Below, piece after piece: positions 22,908 through 59,815 of a stretch of 64,000 bases of DNA. The notes under the pieces are model-generated. The model was not told where the DNA came from and did no database searches. It saw nothing but the letters and a program-made list of their open reading frames with translations. Position 1 is the first letter of the stretch; each line of letters opens with the position of its first letter. Source of the DNA: Rheinheimera sediminis (GTDB lineage: Bacteria > Pseudomonadota > Gammaproteobacteria > Enterobacterales > Alteromonadaceae); the NCBI RefSeq assembly GCF_004005375.1, contig NZ_RZUF01000013.1, positions 62,001-126,000 of the forward strand, written 5' to 3'. The position numbers and the translations under genes are program-made.

Positions 22908-24014
22908 TTAAGCAGGTTGTTGCTGGGTAATGCAGTGCACGTTGCCGCCACCTAATAAAATCTCACGGCCAGGCACTGTGACCACCTGATGCTTTGGAAA
23001 GACTTTAGATAAGATGTCGATCGCAACCTGATCGTTGGCATCGTCAAATACCGGCAACACCAAACCGCCATTGCATAAATAAAAGTTGATGTAAGAACCG
23101 GCTAAACGGGCTTCAGATTCACGAGGTACTGCTGCGCCCGTTAAATCCACAGTGGCATATTCGTCTGCTTTGGCTAGCATAGGAGCAGGCACAGGCAGCT
23201 TGTGTACAGTGAATTTACGACCTTTGGCATCAGTGCTGTTTTCCAGCACTTCTAAAGCAGCGCGTGAGCGTTCGTACTGTGGATCGTTTTTGTCGTCAGT
23301 CCATGCCAGCAAGACTTCTGCTGGGCCGACAAAACAACACATATTATCGACGTGACCATCGGTTTCGTCGTTAAAAATGCCTTCTTTCAGCCAAATCACT
23401 TTATCAATACTTAAGTAATCGGACAGCATCTGCTCGATTTGTTCGCGCGTTAAATCCGGGTTACGGTTTTTATTCAGCAAACATTCTTCAGTGGTCAGCA
23501 AGGTGCCTTCGCCATCGACATGAATAGCGCCACCTTCCAGCACAAAGCCTTCTGTACGGTAACGAGCTGTGCCTTCAATATTGGCAATCTTTTGTGCGAC
23601 TTGGTCGTCTCTGTGCCAAGGGAAATATAAACCACCGTTTAAACCACCCCAGGCATTAAAGGTCCAGTCAACAGCACGCACTTCTTTGCCATTGGTGACA
23701 AAAGTAGGGCCAGTGTCACGGCACCAGGCGTCATCTGTTGAGGTTTCAACCACACGAATGGGGTGAGTGGTTGGCTCTAAGCTCAACTGTGCCTGAGCAT
23801 TGGCAAACTGAGCGGCAGAGGCCAACACAGTCACCGGCTCAAAACGGGCAATAGCACGGATCACAGCACAAAAGGCTTGCTGTGCTGGCTTGGCGCCTAA
23901 ACGCCAGTTATCGGTACGTTCTGGCCATACCATCCAGGTTTGTTTATGCGTAGCCCATTCGGCTGGCATAAAAAAACCATCGGCACGAGGCGTACTGTTT
24001 AAGGTAACAGCCAT
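22908..24014 (-). CDS. aguA: Agmatine deiminase
   Basis: 368 residues from the ATG at 24014, one base after the aguB stop; an in-frame upstream start would overlap aguB. AguA converts agmatine to N-carbamoylputrescine. The pentein-fold motifs are intact: [38 protein letters not shown] and the catalytic Cys in [11 protein letters not shown]. It works directly with AguB to make putrescine. Confidence 0.96.
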
Positions 24015-24015
24015 C

Positions 24016-24906
24016 TTAGTTGTTACCTTCAGTTGGGGTAGTTTTGCCATCTTTGGTTAAGATAGCACCGTATAAGTCGATACGACGGTCACGGTAGACG
24101 CCCCAGTTACGACGGTTTTTTGCGGTCTCGTCTAAATCGAAGGTATGAACTAACACAGCTTCGCTGACTTCGTCTGCTTCTTCTACCTTGGCACCAAACT
24201 CGTTGGCAATAAAAGAGCTGCCGTAGAAGGTAATAGCAAAGTCGTCTTCGGTTTCACGACCAATGCGGTTCGATGCAATGAGTGGAACCAGGTTGGCAGC
24301 TGCGTGGCCTTGTTGAGTACGTTGCCAGTGTTCACGTGAATTGACGGTTTCGTCATGAGGTTCAGTGCCAATAGCTGTAGGGTAGAACAGCAGTTCTGCG
24401 CCCATTAATGCCATGCTGCGGGCACATTCAGGGAACCATTGATCCCAGCAAATACCAATACCAATTTTGGCATAAGCTGTATCCCAAACTTTAAAGCCAG
24501 TGTCACCCGGAGTGAAATAGAATTTTTCGCTGTAGCCCGGGCCATCAGGAATATGACTCTTGCGGTATAAACCTAAGTTGCTACCGTCGGCATCAATCAC
24601 GGCCACAGTGTTGTAAAAGCAGTTGCCTGCTTTTTCATAAAAACTGATAGGCAGTACCACATTCAGCTCTTTGGCAATTTTGCTGAAATGTTTGATAGCC
24701 GCGTTGTCTTCGACAGACGTTGCGAACTCTAAATATTCATATTTTTGTTTCTGGCAGAAGTAGTTACGTTCAAACAGTTCCTGCAGCAGGATAATTTGTG
24801 CACCCTGAGCAGCCGCATCACGGACTAAGCGCTCACCACGGGCAATATTTTCTTCTACATTCCAGCCACCAATCATTTGGGTGGCGGCCACAGTTACCTT
24901 ACGCAT
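24016..24906 (-). CDS. aguB: N-carbamoylputrescine amidase
   Basis: 296 residues from the ATG at 24906, with GGAGA upstream; a longer frame to 24939 lacks a site. It is a nitrilase-superfamily enzyme with the catalytic Glu in [11 protein letters not shown], Lys in [12 protein letters not shown] and Cys in [12 protein letters not shown]. It hydrolyses N-carbamoylputrescine to putrescine, CO2 and ammonia. It is the first gene of the aguBA operon. Confidence 0.96.
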
Positions 24907-25043
24907 GCAAAGTCTCCTCAAGCCAGAGCTATTAGTCAAACAGAATTCAAATCAAAAGATGCAGCTACTCTAGTCAGTTTTGCCCCCCAGAGCAACCAAC
25001 AGTGGCAACCAAACAAGGGCAATCAAAAGCCTGGGCTGCAAGG

Positions 25044-27128: not shown

Positions 27129-27180
27129 GGGGTCAGGCCTTGAATATTGAATTTAGATTCAATATTCAAGGCCTGACCCC
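27129..27180. repeat. REP-like hairpin, perfect 24-base arms (GGGGTCAG...CTGACCCC)
   Basis: Arms at 27129-27152 and 27157-27180 are exact complements around TTAG, so the DNA is an almost complete 52-base palindrome. The ends GGGGTCAG and CTGACCCC are those seen on REP/Y1-transposase-linked hairpins. It sits between the convergent ubiF-type and GH127 genes and its right arm provides the last codons and stop of GH127. Confidence 0.85.
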
Positions 27181-29501
27181 TTCAGTAAACGCACCTGATA
27201 CAGTCCACCTGCGATGCTGCCGGGCTTGGCGACAAATTTGACGCGGAAGTGCCCGGCATTTTTCGGCAGCAGCTCATTAGGGATTGGGTAATCGACGCTG
27301 TACCAGTCCGGTCCCAGGCCGCTTTTCAGCTCAACGTCGGTCAGCTTTTTATCATCCAGCCAGACCTCAAATTGCCTCCCGCCATCCAGACCAAAATACT
27401 CCAGCCGCAAGGTCAGATTTTGCTGGCCCTTGTGGCTTAACTGATAACTAAACCAGCTTTTACTGTGCCGCCAATGTCGGCCTAAATTGATACCTGCTTC
27501 GCTTTGTTCACCCTGATAAAAATGATCCGACTCAGGTTGTTGTTCACCCGGATAGACTTTATCCAAGGTCTGCTGTTCAAGCAAAGCTTCGGCTTTATCT
27601 TGCTGTTCTTGCTGCTGTTTCTGTTGTTGCCAGCCATCAAGGCTAGTGTGCTGAAAGTAGATTTGGTATCTGCTGTCGTGCAGCCGGAAAAAGGGGATCA
27701 GCTCAGGCTTACCCTGTAAAAAGCCTTGGCCAGTGCTGAAGCTTAAAGGTTGATTGGGTAGACGCTTTAAGTTGGCGAGGAAGTTGTTGGTATCACCAAT
27801 ATAAAGTGGTGCGGCAGAAACTGGACAGGTTGGGCCCGACGCTATATGGCCCATTCTGCTGTCGTCAGCAACAAATCTTAAGCTTTCGTTTTTAAAAGGT
27901 GCACTGCGACTAGCCAGCACCAGAGGACCGAACAATACCGCATGATAGTCAGGCTTGGCTGGCATAGGGCTCAAACTGAGCTGCATCGGCAGCTCAAGTT
28001 TCACTTTATCGCCTTGTTGCCAGGGGCCAGCCAGCAGAATATGTTTACCGGTTTTGGTTGTTACTTCAACTGCTTTGCCATTACGCCAGACTTTCACTGC
28101 TCCGGCCCAGGATGGATACCGCAGCTCTAGGTTCAATGTACTTGCTGCATCAAAGACCAATTCAGTGCTGTTTTCATCCGGGAATAGGGTCTGCTGGTGC
28201 AGTTTTATCTCCGGAGTGCTCATGCTGGAGGCTATCCACAAATTCACCTGCAAAGCGTTTTTATCCAGGCTGTAAATAAATTCGCCATGTTTGCTATGGC
28301 TTTCTATGCCTGAGCCAACACAACACCACATGCCTTGATCCACTTTGGAATAAACCCGGTAATGTTGAGGTCGCATAGAGGTGAAATAAACAAAACCGCC
28401 ATGCTCCGGATGTTGGCTGGCCAGAATATGGTTCCACAAGCCTCGCTCATAATAATCAAGGTATTTGCTTTGGCCAGTCTGACGGTACAGCAGCATGGAG
28501 AGTTTCAGCATATTGTAGGTATTGCAGGTTTCAGGCCCCTCTACTTCATTCAGCATGGGGTTGAAGTCGTCTTTTGGATGAAAATGCTCCCGCACGCTGT
28601 TACCACCGATGGCGACAGTGCGCTGCTCTACCACTAAAGACCAGAAATATTCGGCCGCTTTTAACCAGTTTTTATCGCCGGACAATTCGGCAATACGAGC
28701 CATACCCACTACTTTAGGAATTTGGGTATTGGCATGCAGGCCGGTGAGCTTGTCTTCGCCTTTCAGTAACGGCTCCAGAATACGTAATTCGGTAAAATCT
28801 TTAGCCAACTGCATGTAGCTATTGTCATCAAAAATGACAGCCATATCAGCCAGCACTTCGTTCATGCCACCATGTTCGGTCAGCAGCATTTGCTGGATTT
28901 GCTGCGGTGATAAATGTTTGACCAGATTTTTCAGCCAGTTGCCATAATTCAGCAGCAGGGTTTTGGCTCGCTTATCGCCGGTTTGCAGGTAGATATCCCG
29001 CAGGCCAGCGAAGGTTTTATGAATATTGTAAAAAGGCACCCAGTGTTTATTCAGGCTAAATAAATCGGCTTCAATCTGGCCTTGCTGAATTTGCTGCCAT
29101 AAGGCTTTACTGCCAGGCACGCCGCCTAAATAACCATGCTGAACCTGCTGGATTTTCTGAAGTTCGGTGAGTAAATAATCCAGCCGGGCTTTGATTTGTT
29201 CATTTGAGGTGGCGCTCAACATATAGGCCAGAGCCGTTAAATAATGCCCCAGCATATGACCGTCTAAACCGGTATTTTCCCAGTTGCCATAGGACTCTAC
29301 ATTGCTTTTAATGTCAGCTTCACGGCGCAGTGGTGCTAGTAATTTGTCTGCATCCAGTGCCAGTAAGTACTGCAGATTGGTTTGCTCTGAATGCAAAAAG
29401 GGGCCGTCAGTCAGCTTTACTGCAGACAAAGGTACGAATTCGACCGCAGCTAGCGATAAAGTGGTAAAGCAGAGTAGGGCAGTAAATAACCTAACCATCA
29501 T
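27159..29501 (-). CDS. GH127 family beta-L-arabinofuranosidase-like glycosidase, exported
   Basis: 780 residues from the ATG at 29501 (GAGGGG upstream; a TTG at 29513 is possible). A signal peptide (about 1-19) is followed by an alpha/alpha barrel of PF07944. The catalytic zinc-thiolate set of HypBA1 can be seen: Glu and Cys in GPETCNTYN and the Cys pair in WCCVGSG. The C-terminal beta domains carry a glutamine-rich insert (QQQKQQQEQQ). Such enzymes release L-arabinofuranose from beta-linked arabinosides. The last residues GSGLEY and the stop are encoded by the REP-like hairpin, so the original C-terminus may have been altered. It is the last gene of the leftward arabinan unit. Confidence 0.9.
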   Translation of the reverse strand: MMVRLFTALLCFTTLSLAAVEFVPLSAVKLTDGPFLHSEQTNLQYLLALDADKLLAPLRREADIKSNVESYGNWENTGLDGHMLGHYLTALAYMLSATSNEQIKARLDYLLTELQKIQQVQHGYLGGVPGSKALWQQIQQGQIEADLFSLNKHWVPFYNIHKTFAGLRDIYLQTGDKRAKTLLLNYGNWLKNLVKHLSPQQIQQMLLTEHGGMNEVLADMAVIFDDNSYMQLAKDFTELRILEPLLKGEDKLTGLHANTQIPKVVGMARIAELSGDKNWLKAAEYFWSLVVEQRTVAIGGNSVREHFHPKDDFNPMLNEVEGPETCNTYNMLKLSMLLYRQTGQSKYLDYYERGLWNHILASQHPEHGGFVYFTSMRPQHYRVYSKVDQGMWCCVGSGIESHSKHGEFIYSLDKNALQVNLWIASSMSTPEIKLHQQTLFPDENSTELVFDAASTLNLELRYPSWAGAVKVWRNGKAVEVTTKTGKHILLAGPWQQGDKVKLELPMQLSLSPMPAKPDYHAVLFGPLVLASRSAPFKNESLRFVADDSRMGHIASGPTCPVSAAPLYIGDTNNFLANLKRLPNQPLSFSTGQGFLQGKPELIPFFRLHDSRYQIYFQHTSLDGWQQQKQQQEQQDKAEALLEQQTLDKVYPGEQQPESDHFYQGEQSEAGINLGRHWRHSKSWFSYQLSHKGQQNLTLRLEYFGLDGGRQFEVWLDDKKLTDVELKSGLGPDWYSVDYPIPNELLPKNAGHFRVKFVAKPGSIAGGLYQVRLLKGSGLEY

Positions 29502-29515
29502 CAATCCCCTCAAAT

Positions 29516-29567
29516 TGGGGGCAGATCACAGTGTTAACCGTTAACAAAGTGATCTGACTCCTTTTTT
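29516..29567. repeat. Second REP-like hairpin (GGGGxCAGATCAC...GTGATCTGACTCC)
   Basis: CAGATCAC (29522-29529) pairs with GTGATCTG (29549-29556), with an inner TGTTAAC/GTTAACA stem around one base. The outer GGGG and CTCC ends resemble the GGGGTCAG ends of the element at 27129. It lies between the GH43 and GH127 genes; a T-run follows on the plus strand. Confidence 0.75.
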
Positions 29568-30513
29568 ATTCTTGTACTGAAGGGCGGCCAAAAACAGGCA
29601 TGCCGTTGTCGTCCCAGCGCAGCGCTTTGACGTAGGTATGGCGGTTTGGATCCCAGAGTGGATCGCCAACTATTTCGGTGTAAGTGCGGGCGTGATACAC
29701 CAGTAAGTCAGTTTTTCCGTCGGCGGATACTGTGAAGCTGTTATGGCCCGGGCCGTACACCTTATGTTCAAAGCAGCTTTGCAGCACAGGCTCTTTCAGC
29801 TTATGCCAGCTTTGTGGGTTCATCAGGTTGGCATTTTCATCGGCCCACAATAGCCCCATGGCATAGTTTTCATCTGTGGCACTGGCTGAGTAGCTGATAA
29901 AAACTTTGCCGTGACGAATAAGTACGCTTGGGCCTTCGTTCACCCAAAAACCACGGATTTCCCAGTCGAATTCAGGTTTGCTCAGAAGTACAGGCGCGCT
30001 GCTGATTTTGTCCGGTGTATCCATAGTGGCGATGTATAAATTGCTGTTGCCTTCAATCTGATTGTCTTTTTGCGCCCATAAATAATACAACTGGCCTTGG
30101 TGCTCAAAGGTGGTGGCGTCCAGACAAAAAGTATCGATGCCGGTATCAACCTGGCCTAAGAACTGCCACAGCCCTTCAATAGGGTTAGCGTCTTTGCAGC
30201 AAATCACATACATGCGGTGCTGGAACAGTTTGTCTTTAATCTCGCGACTAGGAGCTGCAGCAAAGTAGATATACCAGGCACCTTGGCGAAAATGAATTTC
30301 CGGTGCCCAAATAAGCTCAGAATAAGGCCCTGACTCGGGTTTTAACCAAGCGGCGATCGGTGTTGCCTGCGGCAGTTCTTCGATAGTGCGGGCACGGCGC
30401 AACTCGATTCTGTCGTAGGCCGGCACCGAGGCGGTAAAATAATAATAGCCATCGCTATGACGATAAATGCAGGGGTCGGCCCGCTGTTCAATTAAAGGCG
30501 TTAACAATCGCAT
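29566..30513 (-). CDS. GH43 family glycosidase (alpha-L-arabinofuranosidase-like), cytoplasmic
   Basis: 315 residues, no signal peptide. The five-bladed propeller signature is present: base Asp in ADPCIYRHSDGYYYFTAS, the pKa-modulating Asp in the LDATTFEH region and the acid Glu in VNEGPSVL, with the VYGPGHNSF segment. GH43 enzymes of this form are described as alpha-N-arabinofuranosidases. Being cytoplasmic and next to a GPH symporter, it probably cleaves imported arabino-oligosaccharides. Substrate is inferred from neighbours. Confidence 0.88.
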   Translation of the reverse strand: MRLLTPLIEQRADPCIYRHSDGYYYFTASVPAYDRIELRRARTIEELPQATPIAAWLKPESGPYSELIWAPEIHFRQGAWYIYFAAAPSREIKDKLFQHRMYVICCKDANPIEGLWQFLGQVDTGIDTFCLDATTFEHQGQLYYLWAQKDNQIEGNSNLYIATMDTPDKISSAPVLLSKPEFDWEIRGFWVNEGPSVLIRHGKVFISYSASATDENYAMGLLWADENANLMNPQSWHKLKEPVLQSCFEHKVYGPGHNSFTVSADGKTDLLVYHARTYTEIVGDPLWDPNRHTYVKALRWDDNGMPVFGRPSVQE

Positions 30514-30560: not shown

Positions 30561-31946
30561 TTATTTAGCATTCAGCAGCTGGACTGCTGGTGCTGCCTGT
30601 TCAGGCTTTGGGGGCTGAATTTGGCCTGCCACCATGTCCTGATAAAAGTTGTCGGTAATTTTGTATTTGTACATCAGAAGGCCCATCAGCAAATGGAAAA
30701 AGCCAGGGATCACCGACAGCATCAGCGCTATACCCACTAAGCTGGTTTCGCTTTGCATTTGATCCGGTTGATAATCAAAGAAGGTTAATAAGCTACCCAC
30801 CACAAAACCCGCTATGCCCATGCCTGCTTTCTGGCAAAACGAAATACCACCAAAAGCTAAACCTGAAACGCGCTGGCCGGTTTTGTGTTCACCATAGTCC
30901 ACGGCCTCAGCAATGGCCGACCAGAACACTGGGGCATGCAAATCCACCACAAAAGAGAGTAAAAAATACAATACAAAAGCCAGCCACAAATCACCGGGTT
31001 TCACCAGTACAAACAGCAGCACACTTAACACAGCTACCACAATCTGGCTTGTACGGAACAGTTTTACTTTGCAGTAATGTTTAGTGATCCAGGTCGATGC
31101 CACCATAGCCAGAATGGCGGCCACCACACCGGTAGATAAAAAGGCCGACAGCATAGTGGCATCACCACCCAGATAATATTTGGCGTAATAAGCTGCCACT
31201 GAGCCACGAATGACATAACCAATAGTGCCAGTGACACATACAGCGCATAAAATTAGCCACTGATCATTTTTGAGTAAAAGTTTTAACTGACTGAAAAAGG
31301 GTTTGGTTTCCACCTGATGCTGCAAACGTTCCGTAGTATTAAAAAAGCAGAATAAAAACAATAAACTTGCCATAGCCGCCATCAACCCCATAGCGGCCTG
31401 ATAACCGGCAGCCAGTTGGCCTTCGCCCCACTGCGCAGCTAAAACTGGCACTATAATAGTCACTAAAAAGGCGGCAATTTTGGCGAAGAATAAACGGTAG
31501 CCGTTGGCAGATAATCGCTCTTTCGGGCAGTCGGTTAAAACGCCAATGATGGAAATATAGGGGATAGTGACGGCCGTGAACATCAGGGTGACAAAAATGT
31601 ACGTGGCGTAAGCCCACACCAGTTTGCCGTTGTAATCCAGATCTGGTGTCGAGAAGGTTAAAAACACCGAGATACCAAAAGGGATAGCCATAAACAGGAA
31701 ATAATGTCGGTAGCGGCCCCAGCGGGTGGTGAATTTATCGGTCAGCATACCCATTAATGGATCTGTAACTGCATCAATCAGTCGCACCACCAGAAATAAA
31801 ATCGCAACGTCTGAGGCTTTTAAACCAAAGATATCAGTGTAAAAAAAAGTGATGATCAGCATCATGGATGAAATCACGACATTGACGGCCATATCTCCGG
31901 CGCCAAAGCCAATTTTCTCCATGACAGAAAGTTTATAACCTGCCAT
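30561..31946 (-). CDS. GPH-family (glycoside-pentoside-hexuronide) cation symporter
   Basis: 461 residues with twelve predicted membrane helices and the GPH marks KIGFGAGDMAVN at the start and DPLMGMLTDKFTTRWGRYRHYF between helices 2 and 3. It should import arabinosides or arabinose with Na+ or H+. GGGGAG precedes the ATG. It is the first gene of the left-going operon (transporter, GH43, GH127). Confidence 0.93.
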   Translation of the reverse strand: MAGYKLSVMEKIGFGAGDMAVNVVISSMMLIITFFYTDIFGLKASDVAILFLVVRLIDAVTDPLMGMLTDKFTTRWGRYRHYFLFMAIPFGISVFLTFSTPDLDYNGKLVWAYATYIFVTLMFTAVTIPYISIIGVLTDCPKERLSANGYRLFFAKIAAFLVTIIVPVLAAQWGEGQLAAGYQAAMGLMAAMASLLFLFCFFNTTERLQHQVETKPFFSQLKLLLKNDQWLILCAVCVTGTIGYVIRGSVAAYYAKYYLGGDATMLSAFLSTGVVAAILAMVASTWITKHYCKVKLFRTSQIVVAVLSVLLFVLVKPGDLWLAFVLYFLLSFVVDLHAPVFWSAIAEAVDYGEHKTGQRVSGLAFGGISFCQKAGMGIAGFVVGSLLTFFDYQPDQMQSETSLVGIALMLSVIPGFFHLLMGLLMYKYKITDNFYQDMVAGQIQPPKPEQAAPAVQLLNAK

Positions 31947-32054: not shown

Positions 32055-32067
32055 ATAGTATTACTAT
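32055..32067. promoter_or_regulatory. Operator candidate 1 (ATAGTA-T-TACTAT)
   Basis: A 13-base perfect odd palindrome about 110 bases upstream of the GPH symporter start. Read on the other strand it contains GTAATAC, the core shared with operators 2 and 3. Confidence 0.5.
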
Positions 32068-32231
32068 TGAGTTCAGCTGACAAGCCAGAAAAAAGGTTTG
32101 AACTTTTTCTGATATTTAATACTTATCTATTTGTTTTATATGGCTATTGTTTGAGTTTGGTTATTGTCTTCAGCGCAATTTATGGCAGAGGTGTTTCTGC
32201 ATTTTATTGCTTGCTGCGTTGAACTTATGCT

Positions 32232-32246
32232 ATTTGTAATACAAAT
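32232..32246. promoter_or_regulatory. Operator candidate 2 (ATTTGTA-A-TACAAAT)
   Basis: A 15-base perfect odd palindrome 23 bases before the start of the endo-arabinanase-like GH43. Its ATTTGT/ACAAAT halves resemble the Bacillus AraR box, although the regulator here is unknown. Confidence 0.6.
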
Positions 32247-32269
32247 TCAACTAAAACAGGATGAACTCT

Positions 32270-33319
32270 ATGAGTAAGCCTAATTCTTTGATCACTGTAG
32301 CTGGAAAGTCACTTTTGGGCGGCGCTCTGTTGTTGAGCGCTGCTCTTTTTTCTGGTCTGGCTCAGTCTGAACAAGTCAGTATTCATGACCCGGTGATGGC
32401 AAAAGACAAAGGTCAGTATTTTTTATACAGTACTGGCCCGGGCATTACCTTTTACCAATCCAGCGATTTAACAAACTGGCGCTTAGGCGGCCGTGTTTTT
32501 GCGACTGAGCCTGACTGGGCAAAAACAGTATCCCCAAGCTTTGATGGCCATATCTGGGCACCGGATATTTTTCAGCATCAAGGCAAGTTTTATCTGTATT
32601 ACTCCATCTCTGCTTTTGGCAAAAATACCTCGGCTATTGGTGTCACAGTGAATACGACTTTGGATCCTAAAGATCCAAATTATCAATGGGTGGATCAGGG
32701 CATAGTACTGCAATCTGTGCCACAACGTGACTTATGGAATGCGATAGACCCTGCCATCATTCTGGATGAACAAGGTGAAGCCTGGATGAGCTTCGGCTCT
32801 TTTTGGAGTGGGTTGAAACTGGTGAAACTGGATCAAAATCTGACCCGTATAGCGCAGCCTGAACAGTGGCACACGCTTGCCAAAGCAGAGCGACCTGCAT
32901 TTTTAGATGACGCAGAACCTGGTCCTGCAGAGCTGGAGGCGCCTTTTATCTACAAAAAAGGCGATTACTATTATCTATTTGTTTCTTATGGCAAATGTTG
33001 CCGTGGTAAAGACAGTACTTATCATATGGTGGTAGGTCGTTCTAAAACCTTAGCCGGGCCTTATCTGGATAAAAACGGCAAGGATTTAGCTATGGGCGGC
33101 GGTTCTCTACTGCTCAAAGGCAACAGCGATTGGCCTGGTTTAGGCCACAACTCAGTGTACGACTTCAACGGCAAAGACTATCTGGTGTTTCATGCCTACG
33201 AGATGGCTGACAACGGTCTGCAAAAGTTAAAAATTACCGCCTTAAACTGGGATAAAAACGGCTGGCCACAAGTTGATGATAAAGACTGGTTGGGTTATCA
33301 GAGTTCCCTTATTCGCTGA
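32270..33319 (+). CDS. Secreted GH43 endo-1,5-alpha-L-arabinanase-like enzyme
   Basis: 349 residues from the ATG at 32270 (AGGA eight bases upstream; an ATG at 32261 is possible). The signal peptide ends near AQS. The GH43 base Asp lies in IHDPVMAKDKGQYFLYST, the second Asp in AIDPAIILDE and the acid Glu in ELEAPFIYKKGDYYYLF, followed by GLGHNSVYDF. This is the GH43 subfamily 5-type pattern. It should cut the alpha-1,5 arabinan backbone outside the cytoplasm. Confidence 0.92.
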   Translation: MSKPNSLITVAGKSLLGGALLLSAALFSGLAQSEQVSIHDPVMAKDKGQYFLYSTGPGITFYQSSDLTNWRLGGRVFATEPDWAKTVSPSFDGHIWAPDIFQHQGKFYLYYSISAFGKNTSAIGVTVNTTLDPKDPNYQWVDQGIVLQSVPQRDLWNAIDPAIILDEQGEAWMSFGSFWSGLKLVKLDQNLTRIAQPEQWHTLAKAERPAFLDDAEPGPAELEAPFIYKKGDYYYLFVSYGKCCRGKDSTYHMVVGRSKTLAGPYLDKNGKDLAMGGGSLLLKGNSDWPGLGHNSVYDFNGKDYLVFHAYEMADNGLQKLKITALNWDKNGWPQVDDKDWLGYQSSLIR

Positions 33320-33392
33320 ATCCTTGTTTTGGCGGCTGTATGCCGCCCCTGTTGTTTTCCGCTGCTTTTCGTTTTAGACTCATAAAGTCTTA

Positions 33393-33403
33393 TTGTAATA
33401 CAA
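33393..33403. promoter_or_regulatory. Operator candidate 3 (TTGTA-A-TACAA)
   Basis: An 11-base perfect palindrome 32 bases before the start of the GH43 lipoprotein gene, with the same TTGTAATACAA core as operator 2. Confidence 0.6.
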
Positions 33404-33435
33404 ATATAAAATCAACAGACCAGACAGGGTTAGCT

Positions 33436-35319
33436 ATGACTTTTAAAACCAAGCCTCTACCCGGCTTAAAAGGGTACGGTTTGCCATTGGCGATCGGCTT
33501 ACTTAGTGTGTTGGCTGCTTGCTCGCCAGAACAAAAAGGCAGCGATCTAGTTTCAGTCGCTGCCGCGCCAGTTGAAGCTGCCACAGCAGTAATTGAAGAC
33601 CAGAGTTTCACTAACCCTTTGTTTGCTAATGGGGCCGACCCATGGCTTGAATACTGGCAGGGCAATTATTACCTGACCACCACCACCTGGACCTCTCAGC
33701 TGGTGATGCGTAAATCGCCAACTCTGGCCGGTTTAGCTGCAGCCACCCCAGTGAATGTCTGGTCTGAAACGAACCCAAAAAGCTGCTGCAATTTCTGGGC
33801 TTTTGAATTTCATCGCTTACAAGGCCCTGATGGTCCACGCTGGTACATGATGTATACCTCGGGTAAGCAGGAAAATTTAGATGGTCAGCATTTGTCTGTG
33901 CTGGAAAGTGCGGGTGACGACCCTATGGGGCCTTATCAATACAAAGGTTCTCCGATGCCGGATAGCTGGAATATTGACGGCAACTATATGGAACACAACG
34001 GAAAGTTGTATCTGCTGTGGTCGGAATGGGTCGGAGATGAGCAGCTGAATTGGATCAGCGAAATGTCCAATCCATGGACTTTAACTGGCGAGCGCATGGT
34101 GTTATCCCGTCCTTCTTTGCCTTGGGAGCAATCGGGCCGTAAAGTGAATGAAGGTGCTGAAGTACTGAAACACGATGGCCGGACTTTTGTGATTTATTCA
34201 GCCAGCTATTGTGACACACCGGATTATAAACTGGGCTTGCTGGAACTGGTGGGTGACAATCCTATGGATGCCAGTTCTTGGGTAAAAGCAGAACAACCTG
34301 TGTTTGAGCGGGGTAATGGCGTTTTTGGTCCTGGCCATAATGGCTTTTTCACCTCACCAGATGGCACAGAAAACTGGCTGGTGTATCACGGCAATAACAA
34401 AGTAACTGATGGTTGTGGCGCGAGCCGTTCAGTAAGAGCTCAGCCCTTCAGGTTCAAAGCGGATGGCACACCGGATTTTGGTACTCCGGTGCCTGAAGGC
34501 CAGACAGTGGCTGCTCCCTCAGGCGAAAATGGTGCTCTGACCCTGGTGCCACAGGGCGTGAAATGGCAGTTAATTAACAGGTCTAGCCAGCTGTGTCTGA
34601 TGCCATCGGAGCAAGGTCTTACAGAGCAAGATTGCACTGAGCAAGGTCAATGGGTTATTGATCCAACCACAAAAGGCCGTTATCGACTAGCCAACGCTGC
34701 TGGTTTATTTATCGGTGCAACGTCTGAATTGTCTGCCTGGATGAATCAGCCAAGTCAGCAATGGCAGCTGAAAGCGGGCACTGATGGCTACTATCAGCTA
34801 TTAAATGCCGCAGATCAAAAGGCATTAAGCTCAACGGCCTGTAAAGCAGGGGATGAAGCAGAGTTATGTAACGACTGGTTCATGCTGCCGACAGGCAACA
34901 CTGTGCTGAGTAGCAGGCAAAGTGGCAAAGTCTGGAGTACCCAAGGTTGCAGTGCAGAGAGCGGTACAGCAGTAACTCAACAAAACTGGGCTAATCAAAG
35001 CTGTCAGCAGTGGAACTGGCAAGTCGGGCAACAAGGTTTTGTTCAGTTACAAAACAGCCAAAACCCGCAACTTTGTGTTCAGGTGAAAGAGGACGCTTTA
35101 GCTTCAGGAGCCGATCTGGTACTGGGGAATTGTGCTGCCAAGTCCAGCCAGTGGGCTTTGCAACTCTTAGCTAATGGTGCTTTGTCTTTATTATCCCAGC
35201 ACACCAAACAAGTGGCTGACTTACCCAGTTGCAGCTTGCAGGATCAGGAAAAGTTAAAACAGGCCCCGGCCTTGTCTGATGTTATCTGTCAGCAATTTCA
35301 GCTGAGGACAGCGAATTAA
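33436..35319 (+). CDS. GH43 lipoprotein (exo-arabinofuranosidase-like) with ricin-type lectin repeats
   Basis: 627 residues from the ATG at 33436. A lipoprotein signal with lipobox LAAC is followed by a GH43 propeller (about 50-340): GADPWLEYWQGNYYLTTTT, the WAFEFHRL segment, NEGAEVLKHDG with the acid Glu, and FGPGHNGFF. From about residue 370 to the end are beta-trefoil repeats with QxW motifs (QWQL, QWVI, QQWNW, SQWAL), typical of carbohydrate-binding ricin B domains. It resembles exo-1,5-alpha-L-arabinofuranosidases of GH43 subfamily 26. Cell-surface location would feed arabinose or short oligomers to the porin and symporter. Confidence 0.87.
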   Translation: MTFKTKPLPGLKGYGLPLAIGLLSVLAACSPEQKGSDLVSVAAAPVEAATAVIEDQSFTNPLFANGADPWLEYWQGNYYLTTTTWTSQLVMRKSPTLAGLAAATPVNVWSETNPKSCCNFWAFEFHRLQGPDGPRWYMMYTSGKQENLDGQHLSVLESAGDDPMGPYQYKGSPMPDSWNIDGNYMEHNGKLYLLWSEWVGDEQLNWISEMSNPWTLTGERMVLSRPSLPWEQSGRKVNEGAEVLKHDGRTFVIYSASYCDTPDYKLGLLELVGDNPMDASSWVKAEQPVFERGNGVFGPGHNGFFTSPDGTENWLVYHGNNKVTDGCGASRSVRAQPFRFKADGTPDFGTPVPEGQTVAAPSGENGALTLVPQGVKWQLINRSSQLCLMPSEQGLTEQDCTEQGQWVIDPTTKGRYRLANAAGLFIGATSELSAWMNQPSQQWQLKAGTDGYYQLLNAADQKALSSTACKAGDEAELCNDWFMLPTGNTVLSSRQSGKVWSTQGCSAESGTAVTQQNWANQSCQQWNWQVGQQGFVQLQNSQNPQLCVQVKEDALASGADLVLGNCAAKSSQWALQLLANGALSLLSQHTKQVADLPSCSLQDQEKLKQAPALSDVICQQFQLRTAN

Positions 35320-58912: not shown

Positions 58913-59815
58913 ATGACTCCGGTGAATTACAATCAACTCTATTATTTTTACCTGGTGGCTGAACATGGCAGTATTGCCAGAGTCAGTGAACTGTTGCATA
59001 TCACTCCACAAACGATCAGCGGCCAAATCAGCGCCTTTGAGCATGGTATAGGCACTGCTTTGTTCTCCCGTCAGGGCAAAAGACTAATTCCTACTGAACT
59101 TGGAATTGTGGTGCAACGTTATGCTGCTGATATCTTTCAGCTCGGAGATGAGTTGAAAGCTGTATTGACCCGCCAGCACAGTAGTTGGCAGAGTTTTAGC
59201 GTGGGTATTACCGATGTACTGCCAAAAGCTTTTGTCTATGAAATGCTTAAACCTATTTTACAGCTTCCAATTAAACTGATTTGCCGCGAAGGGGAGCAGG
59301 CTGGGCTATTGTCCGAGTTAGCCATCAATAAACTGGATATGGTTTTGTCTGATCAACCTATTCAGCCTGGCAGTCATGTCAAAGCATACAGCCATTTAGT
59401 CACTGAATCTCCTATGGCTGTGTATGCGAGTGAGTCTTTGGCTGAGCAACTCAGTGCTGATTTTCCACGCTCCTTACATGATCAGCCTTTTTTATTACAA
59501 GGAAAAAAATCTATTATCCGCCAGCAGTTAATAGGATGGTTTAACGAAGTGGAAGTACAGCCTGATGTAGTGGCTGAATTTGATGACAGTGCTCTGATGC
59601 AGGCTTTTGCTCAGCAAGGACTTGGCGCTTTTGCCGCTCCTTTGTTACTGGAAAGTCAGCTATTGACCAACTACCGCTTGTTAAAAGTTGGGGTGATCCA
59701 CAGAGTCACAGAGCGTTTTTATGCGATATCGCCTGAACGTAAACTGACCCATCCGGCCGTATTGCAACTGGTAAAGGCGCTGCAACAGGACGGCCGGATC
59801 AGTAGTGACAGTTAG
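58913..59815 (+). CDS. nhaR: NhaR-type LysR regulator
   Basis: 300 residues. The start NYNQLYYFYLVAEHGSIARVSELLHITPQTISGQISAFEHGIG is the NhaR form of the LysR helix-turn-helix (LYYF...GSIARxSExLHxTPQTISGQ). A LysR effector domain follows. NhaR activates the Na+/H+ antiporter nhaA in response to Na+. nhaA is not in the window. It starts 80 bases from the candidate sRNA promoter, on the opposite strand. Confidence 0.9.
   Translation: MTPVNYNQLYYFYLVAEHGSIARVSELLHITPQTISGQISAFEHGIGTALFSRQGKRLIPTELGIVVQRYAADIFQLGDELKAVLTRQHSSWQSFSVGITDVLPKAFVYEMLKPILQLPIKLICREGEQAGLLSELAINKLDMVLSDQPIQPGSHVKAYSHLVTESPMAVYASESLAEQLSADFPRSLHDQPFLLQGKKSIIRQQLIGWFNEVEVQPDVVAEFDDSALMQAFAQQGLGAFAAPLLLESQLLTNYRLLKVGVIHRVTERFYAISPERKLTHPAVLQLVKALQQDGRISSDS

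Follow-up and report, generated by a model that had tools for sequence, protein, structure and literature searches.

Palindromic boxes before arabinan and L-arabinose genes of Rheinheimera sediminis: a predicted regulon of an araD1-linked GntR/FadR-type regulator

The DNA analysed here, called the window, is a stretch of 64 kb on contig C6 of the Rheinheimera sediminis genome, and genes for arabinan breakdown lie on both of its strands. On the minus strand, a gene for an MFS_2/GPH-type transporter (30561..31946; PF13347, E 9e-105) heads an operon; the gene context suggests that arabino-oligosaccharides are probably its substrate. The gene of a GH43 enzyme (29566..30513, minus strand) starts 47 bases behind the transporter gene. 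Based on its Pfam match and its nearest solved relatives (3k1u and 5m8e), this enzyme is probably an exo-arabinanase or arabinofuranosidase. The third gene of the operon (27159..29513, minus strand) encodes a GH127-type beta-L-arabinofuranosidase (PF07944, E 2.6e-114). The plus strand carries a gene for a GH43 endo-1,5-alpha-L-arabinanase (32261..33319; nearest solved relative 1gyd, E 5e-152), whose conserved start may be at 32270 instead of 32261. Behind it, a GH43 and ricin-B protein with a lipoprotein-like start is encoded (33436..35319, plus strand; assigned by Pfam, solved relatives 9nxg and 3akf), which is probably an exo-arabinanase. Its open reading frame is listed from 33340, and comparison with relatives places the conserved start at 33436.

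A check of the sequence confirmed the three palindromes that an earlier note had located at 32055-32067, 32232-32246 and 33393-33403. Their neighbours are also as described there: according to Pfam, the palindromes precede the transporter operon, the endo-arabinanase gene and the GH43 lipoprotein gene. On the plus strand, 32055-32067 reads ATAGTATTACTAT, of which 12 of 13 positions are self-complementary and the centre base cannot pair; the form quoted earlier, ATAGTAATACTAT, is the opposite strand. The second palindrome is ATTTGTAATACAAAT (14 of 15 positions self-complementary) and the third is TTGTAATACAA (10 of 11). The 64-kb window contains no further perfect 11-base palindrome with a GTANTAC core, and the 7-base core occurs 17 times. 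If one mismatch is allowed, the number of matches in the window is not significant (3 compared to a shuffle mean of 1.49, with at least 3 in 19 of 100 shuffles).

The palindromes were delimited as three predicted 13-base operators. Operator 1 (ATAGTAATACTAT, 32055..32067, minus strand) is situated 109 bases before the transporter start and overlaps the promoter candidate TTGTCA-17-TACTAT, which was assigned without a chance control. Operator 2 (TTTGTAATACAAA, 32233..32245, plus strand) lies within the 15-base palindrome before the endo-arabinanase gene. Operator 3 (ATTGTAATACAAA, 33392..33404, plus strand) encloses the perfect palindrome at 33393-33403 and ends 31 bases before the start of the GH43 lipoprotein gene. 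The consensus of the boxes is WTTGTAWTACAAW; some copies have A for T just before GT, or the mirror change.

Each of the three boxes is found at the same place in all seven close relatives (G001-G006 and G011), with variants in the outer bases, and operator 2 is part of an invariant block. The contrast with neighbouring 13-base windows is moderate: operators 1 and 2 are equalled or exceeded in conservation by 63 and 35 of 302 windows, owing to the closeness of the species and the conservation of the promoters themselves. The R. pacifica type (L132 and L139), which is more distant, has one box in the gap between the transporter and endo-arabinanase genes, and its two GH43 genes are arranged like an operon, at most 37 bases apart. 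Four of the six relatives in which the whole locus was read (L127, L128, L129 and L131) have one more GH43-like gene, placed behind the endo-arabinanase gene and before the lipoprotein gene. It has its own exact box in three of the four, and the scanned copy encodes GH43 and ricin-B domains; the corresponding window interval, 33320-33435, lacks this gene. Three R. pacifica-type loci (L133, L134 and L138) carry a TTAGTATTACAAT box at one and the same place, behind a gene of about 660 amino acids and before one of about 200, neither of which matches the reference ara genes.

The pattern WTWGTAWTACWAW was searched in the whole genome, a 4.49-Mb draft in 100 contigs whose close relatives are Rheinheimera species (AraD1 is 94% identical in R. 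soli and R. faecalis). Seven exact places were found: C6:94055, 94233 and 95392, which are the window boxes, and C32:3670, 22123, 22275 and 23420. Such a scan had been proposed as the test of the idea, and it came out as anticipated, since matches outside the window occur only on C32, beside L-arabinose genes. All seven precede genes for arabinan or arabinose use and are confined to two regions of the genome. The reversed control pattern has six places, scattered over six contigs. The number of exact matches is thus no higher than in the control; match counts were dropped as evidence, and the evidence is the placement. With uniform placement, the probability that four of four fall on C32 would be about 9e-10.

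C32 (24 kb) carries the genes of a non-phosphorylative L-arabinose pathway. Its boxes precede a GH43 plus GH43_C gene, the dehydratase operon, another GH43 gene and araD1. A YtfQRT-YjfF-type ABC sugar transporter, a mutarotase, an aldehyde dehydrogenase, an SMP-30-type lactonase and three GH43 enzymes are encoded on this contig. The AraD1/GguC protein scores 527 bits (cut-off 340), the L-arabinonate-dehydratase-like protein 838 bits, under the cut-off of 882, and the short-chain dehydrogenase (SDR) is closest to D-xylose dehydrogenase, with 330 bits under a cut-off of 400. A whole-genome search found no AraA. Judged by gene content, that is, this enzyme set without AraA, the pathway of the organism is predicted to be the non-phosphorylative one.

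The genome contains 31 one-mismatch places of WTTGTAWTACAAW, of which C32:22123 is already a site of the regulon. The examination covered 29 others, all but C19:52032; of these, 24 are inside open reading frames and five are intergenic, and an arabinose gene follows only C46:3158. This eighth, imperfect site, TTTGTCTTACAAT, precedes a GH51 alpha-L-arabinofuranosidase gene. A GH51 homologue exists in 8 of 11 relatives searched, and seven of these eight have kept the site as TTGTCCTACAA, at the same position before TATAAA; XY-R5 differs. The imperfect core, GTCTTAC, retains the GT-N3-AC arrangement. The GH51 leader of this genome (L188 1411-1501, on C46) and that of G011 carry extra bases ahead of the start codon, an insertion that the other relatives lack. 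The matches with a central G or C at C13:130516 and C28:15291 are inside open reading frames and were not counted as sites. Exact boxes with any centre base lie away from known ara genes in 2 of 9 cases in this genome. For the relatives G001-G004, G006 and G008-G011 (G005 and G007 were excluded), zero to four such boxes were counted: 2/8 in G001, 3/11 in G002, 0/6 in G003, 1/7 in G004, 0/8 in G006, 1/4 in G008, 1/4 in G009, 4/7 in G010 and 2/9 in G011.

The arabinan regulon had been called local and the window free of regulator genes. The regulon itself held up, and its locality did not, since its members are found in the window, on C32 and, with the GH51 gene, on C46. As for the regulator, a search that took in part of the window's open reading frames found an unrelated LysR-type gene at 58913-59815; for FCD-type GntR genes the statement is correct, since five exist in the genome and none on the window's contig. 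The candidate has a GntR helix-turn-helix (HTH; PF00392, 59 bits, cut-off 27) and an FCD domain (PF07729, 78 bits, cut-off 24.3), the combination that defines the FadR subfamily, and thus belongs to one of the classes that had been predicted (AraR-, or LacI/GntR-type). A structure model (mean pLDDT 80.9, pTM 0.62) resembles FadR-type GntR structures with TM scores of 0.44-0.56 among the 50 matches listed, and adds little beyond the family.

The candidate gene (L023 73-804) is located at the very end of C43, and C32 ends just after araD1. Bases 2-30 of C43 are identical to bases 1-29 of C46, which places the contig break in a repeat; the break between araD1 and gntR falls at L017 8453-8487 and L023 1-72. 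Nine of 11 Rheinheimera-type loci have the orthologue directly behind araD1, in convergent orientation. The remaining two, L030 and L035, have no regulator near araD1, and the genome of L035 encodes an 82% identical protein elsewhere. In Microbulbifer, five of six loci have the regulator gene flanked by araD1 and the window transporter's orthologue (found by tblastn in L043), and the sixth (L038) has it between araD1 and the GH43 orthologue. This arrangement unites two loci that are separate in Rheinheimera. The Microbulbifer gap between regulator and transporter holds an asymmetric, half-palindromic CTTTGACWTTRRTACTACAATAATATATA block, conserved in 6/6 loci, and a single exact box was found, in one of the six. 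No full box precedes gntR itself, only a conserved half-site TTGTAGTA; autoregulation through a full box was therefore dropped. No consistent box was seen around the gene in alphaproteobacterial relatives, whose regulator is about 40% identical.

The half-sites of the Bacillus AraR box are ATTTGT/ACAAAT, with GT and AC 4 bases apart. A likeness of the palindromes to this box had been pointed out, and it applies to the half-sites only, not to the spacing or to the sensor domain. B. subtilis AraR and the present regulator have a GntR-type DNA-binding domain in common; the spacing is 4 bases there and 3 here. The structure of the AraR DNA-binding domain (4egy) matches the HTH alone (residues 14-73, E 7e-4). 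AraR is defined by a LacI-like sensor domain, according to passages of the literature (PMC4494728), and the candidate carries only FCD behind its HTH, with no LacI/GalR-like C-terminal domain. Membership in the Bacillus AraR family is ruled out by the FCD sensor domain. The same passages give GT and AC 3 bases apart as the usual spacing in the FadR subfamily (PMC4494728). The boxes fit this subfamily: the GT-N3-AC arrangement is found in 7/7 exact sites, where it is fixed by the search pattern, and also in the GH51 site.

The nearest solved protein, though a distant one, is E. coli DgoR (7c7e, E 1.4e-27). DgoR is described as a FadR-subfamily repressor of sugar-acid genes whose operator holds TTGTAGTACAA and overlaps the promoter; its FCD domain binds a metal through D146, H150 and H195, and the effector is an aldonic acid (passages in PMC12288454; PMC7674646). 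In the candidate, D153, H157 and H201 align with these three residues and are invariant in 15/15 orthologues. When the alignment was read by eye, the pocket residues R102, R179 and S221 of DgoR met identical residues, in contrast to W181 and D184. DgoR governs D-galactonate genes, whereas the present boxes precede arabinan and arabinose genes. By analogy, we infer as inducer an aldonic acid other than that of DgoR, with L-arabinonate as the first candidate.

The distribution of the system was surveyed in 394 genomes of the order. A regulator match at E 1e-40 was obtained in 51, and 11 genomes besides the present one have a protein that is 62-77% identical. Ten of these 11 carry an exact box, whatever its centre base, no more than 10 kb from the regulator, compared to 0.25 expected; in G158 the regulator is present and no exact box was found within 10 kb. 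Five of the 11 genomes belong to one genus and three to another, which reduces the number of independent events. Of two genomes of the same genus that have no close orthologue, one contains two exact boxes and the other none. The 11 genomes (L228-L238) fall into four with AraD1 and without AraA and seven with AraA and without AraD1; both were never found together. All 11 loci encode an SDR and an AraC dehydratase close to the regulator. The four AraD1 genomes also have AraD1 and the cluster aldehyde dehydrogenase (ALDH) there, and the seven do not. A genome-wide search of these seven for the cluster ALDH at E 1e-60 gave no match in five, and 46% and 35% identical proteins located elsewhere in two. 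The alternation of AraD1 and AraA, with SDR and AraC constant, indicates that one regulator serves two routes sharing the upper oxidative steps, and this constrains its inducer.

The closest published system is the predicted AraR-II regulon of Shewanella, a GntR-type regulator proposed by comparative genomics, with AraBAD and an incomplete oxidative branch (passages of PMC2996990). The AraR-II locus described there and the present one have in common a GntR gene beside genes for mutarotase, SDR dehydrogenase, L-arabonate dehydratase and YtfQRST-like ABC and GPH transporters (PMC2996990). Five loci of one genus in the survey match this description, with a GntR that is 62-67% identical and a box before araB. 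In one of them, a Pfam scan recognised kinase, epimerase-type and isomerase genes behind the box. These AraR-II-like loci use AraBAD, without AraD1 or the cluster ALDH, whereas the present genome has no AraA, a complete oxidative route and arabinan enzymes. Judged by gene content and regulator identity, the present system is probably an orthologous AraR-II regulon joined to a complete oxidative pathway and arabinan enzymes. It adds a well-supported case to a known type of control. No earlier report of this regulon was seen among the hits listed by full-text searches of an open-access library. GntR-family control of an oxidative arabinose/arabinonate pathway has also been predicted for AraR2 of Halomonas, in which respect the two regulators are alike (passages of PMC5507952); a search up to 9 kb from araD1 on one Halomonas plasmid (L227) gave no hit to the present GntR.

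We consider the three palindromes and the five further sites to be operators of one araD1-linked GntR/FadR-type regulator, which would act as a repressor of a joint arabinan and L-arabinose regulon (probability about 0.85). This reading is supported by the 7/7 placement, the boxes kept in relatives, the GH51 site, the linkage to the regulator, the GT-N3-AC spacing, and the DgoR-like operator and metal residues. Against it count the background-level number of boxes, the exact boxes away from known ara genes, the cases of G158 and G063, the two araD1 loci with no regulator nearby, and the mere half-site before gntR. The predicted regulon would comprise about 19 genes over the window, C32 and C46 loci, grouped into putative operons. 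Its members would encode arabinanases of the endo and exo type, the oligosaccharide importer and its companion GH43 and GH127 enzymes, the ABC transporter for arabinose and, from the non-phosphorylative pathway, mutarotase, dehydrogenase, lactonase, L-arabinonate dehydratase, AraD1 and semialdehyde dehydrogenase. Without arabinose, the dimeric regulator would occupy core promoters and block RNA polymerase. The dimer would be released once an intermediate from the oxidation of arabinose, L-arabinonate being the likeliest, enters the metal-containing FCD pocket. Candidate promoters, selected without a chance control, are overlapped by the araD1 box (TTGATC-17-TAAAAT) and the dehydratase box (TTGATG-17-TATTAA), which suggests repression by occlusion. 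Three palindromes have thereby led to a candidate regulator with about 19 targets and a regulon that can be tested genome-wide, and arabinan depolymerisation would be tied to oxidative arabinose catabolism in Rheinheimera.

Other explanations were weighed against this reading. The intergenic DNA is AT-rich, the boxes are surrounded by conserved promoter elements and the reversed pattern is as frequent, so that chance AT-rich sequence or promoter elements with no operator role might be thought of; the position of 7/7 sites at arabinose genes, their conservation across species and genera and their nearness to the regulator make this extremely improbable. A different regulator on the boxes, for example one of the four other FCD-GntR proteins, with another role for the araD1-linked one, is improbable as well. 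Operators of FadR-type proteins look alike, that of DgoR being a case in point (PMC12288454), the genome has five FCD-GntR genes, and box linkage was analysed for the araD1-linked one only. Moreover, G063 has boxes at araBAD genes without a close regulator orthologue. Against this stand the tight ara neighbourhood of the araD1-linked GntR in many genera and its proximity to boxes in 10 of the 11 genomes. In the G063 locus (L239, C4:507000-526000), two perfect ATTGTATTACAAT boxes flank araBAD together with transketolase and transaldolase genes; the most similar GntR proteins reach 36% and 34% identity, and the gene of the latter is about 18 kb from the first box.

The same regulator might also bind the boxes to activate transcription, or might be a repressor whose inducer is free L-arabinose instead of an acid. 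Arabinose is indeed common to all regulon types seen. Two points speak against such a mode of action, which is somewhat unlikely: the boxes overlap promoter candidates, an overlap that had no chance control, and DgoR, the closest protein of known structure, has metal residues in common with the candidate and is a repressor that an aldonic acid releases. A repressor lifted by an oxidised arabinose intermediate, as concluded from the analogy to DgoR, would be the preferred mode of action. A more speculative extension, which we regard as unlikely, is suggested by the AraD1/AraA split and the retention of SDR and AraC in the 11 genomes. The regulator would sense L-arabinonate or 2-keto-3-deoxy-L-arabonate, not arabinose, and the truncated oxidative branch of AraBAD genomes (SDR dehydrogenase and AraC dehydratase, without AraD1 or the cluster semialdehyde dehydrogenase) would exist to make the inducer. 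If true, this would account for the incompleteness of the oxidative pathway described in Shewanella (PMC2996990). Alternatively, a lower pathway that escaped recognition, for example one with an aldolase, may exist in the AraBAD genomes.

Elsewhere in the window, at 22908-24939 on the minus strand, genes for a PAD_porph (peptidyl-arginine-deiminase-like) protein and a carbon-nitrogen hydrolase adjoin each other according to Pfam. Such genes are the usual pair for agmatine breakdown.
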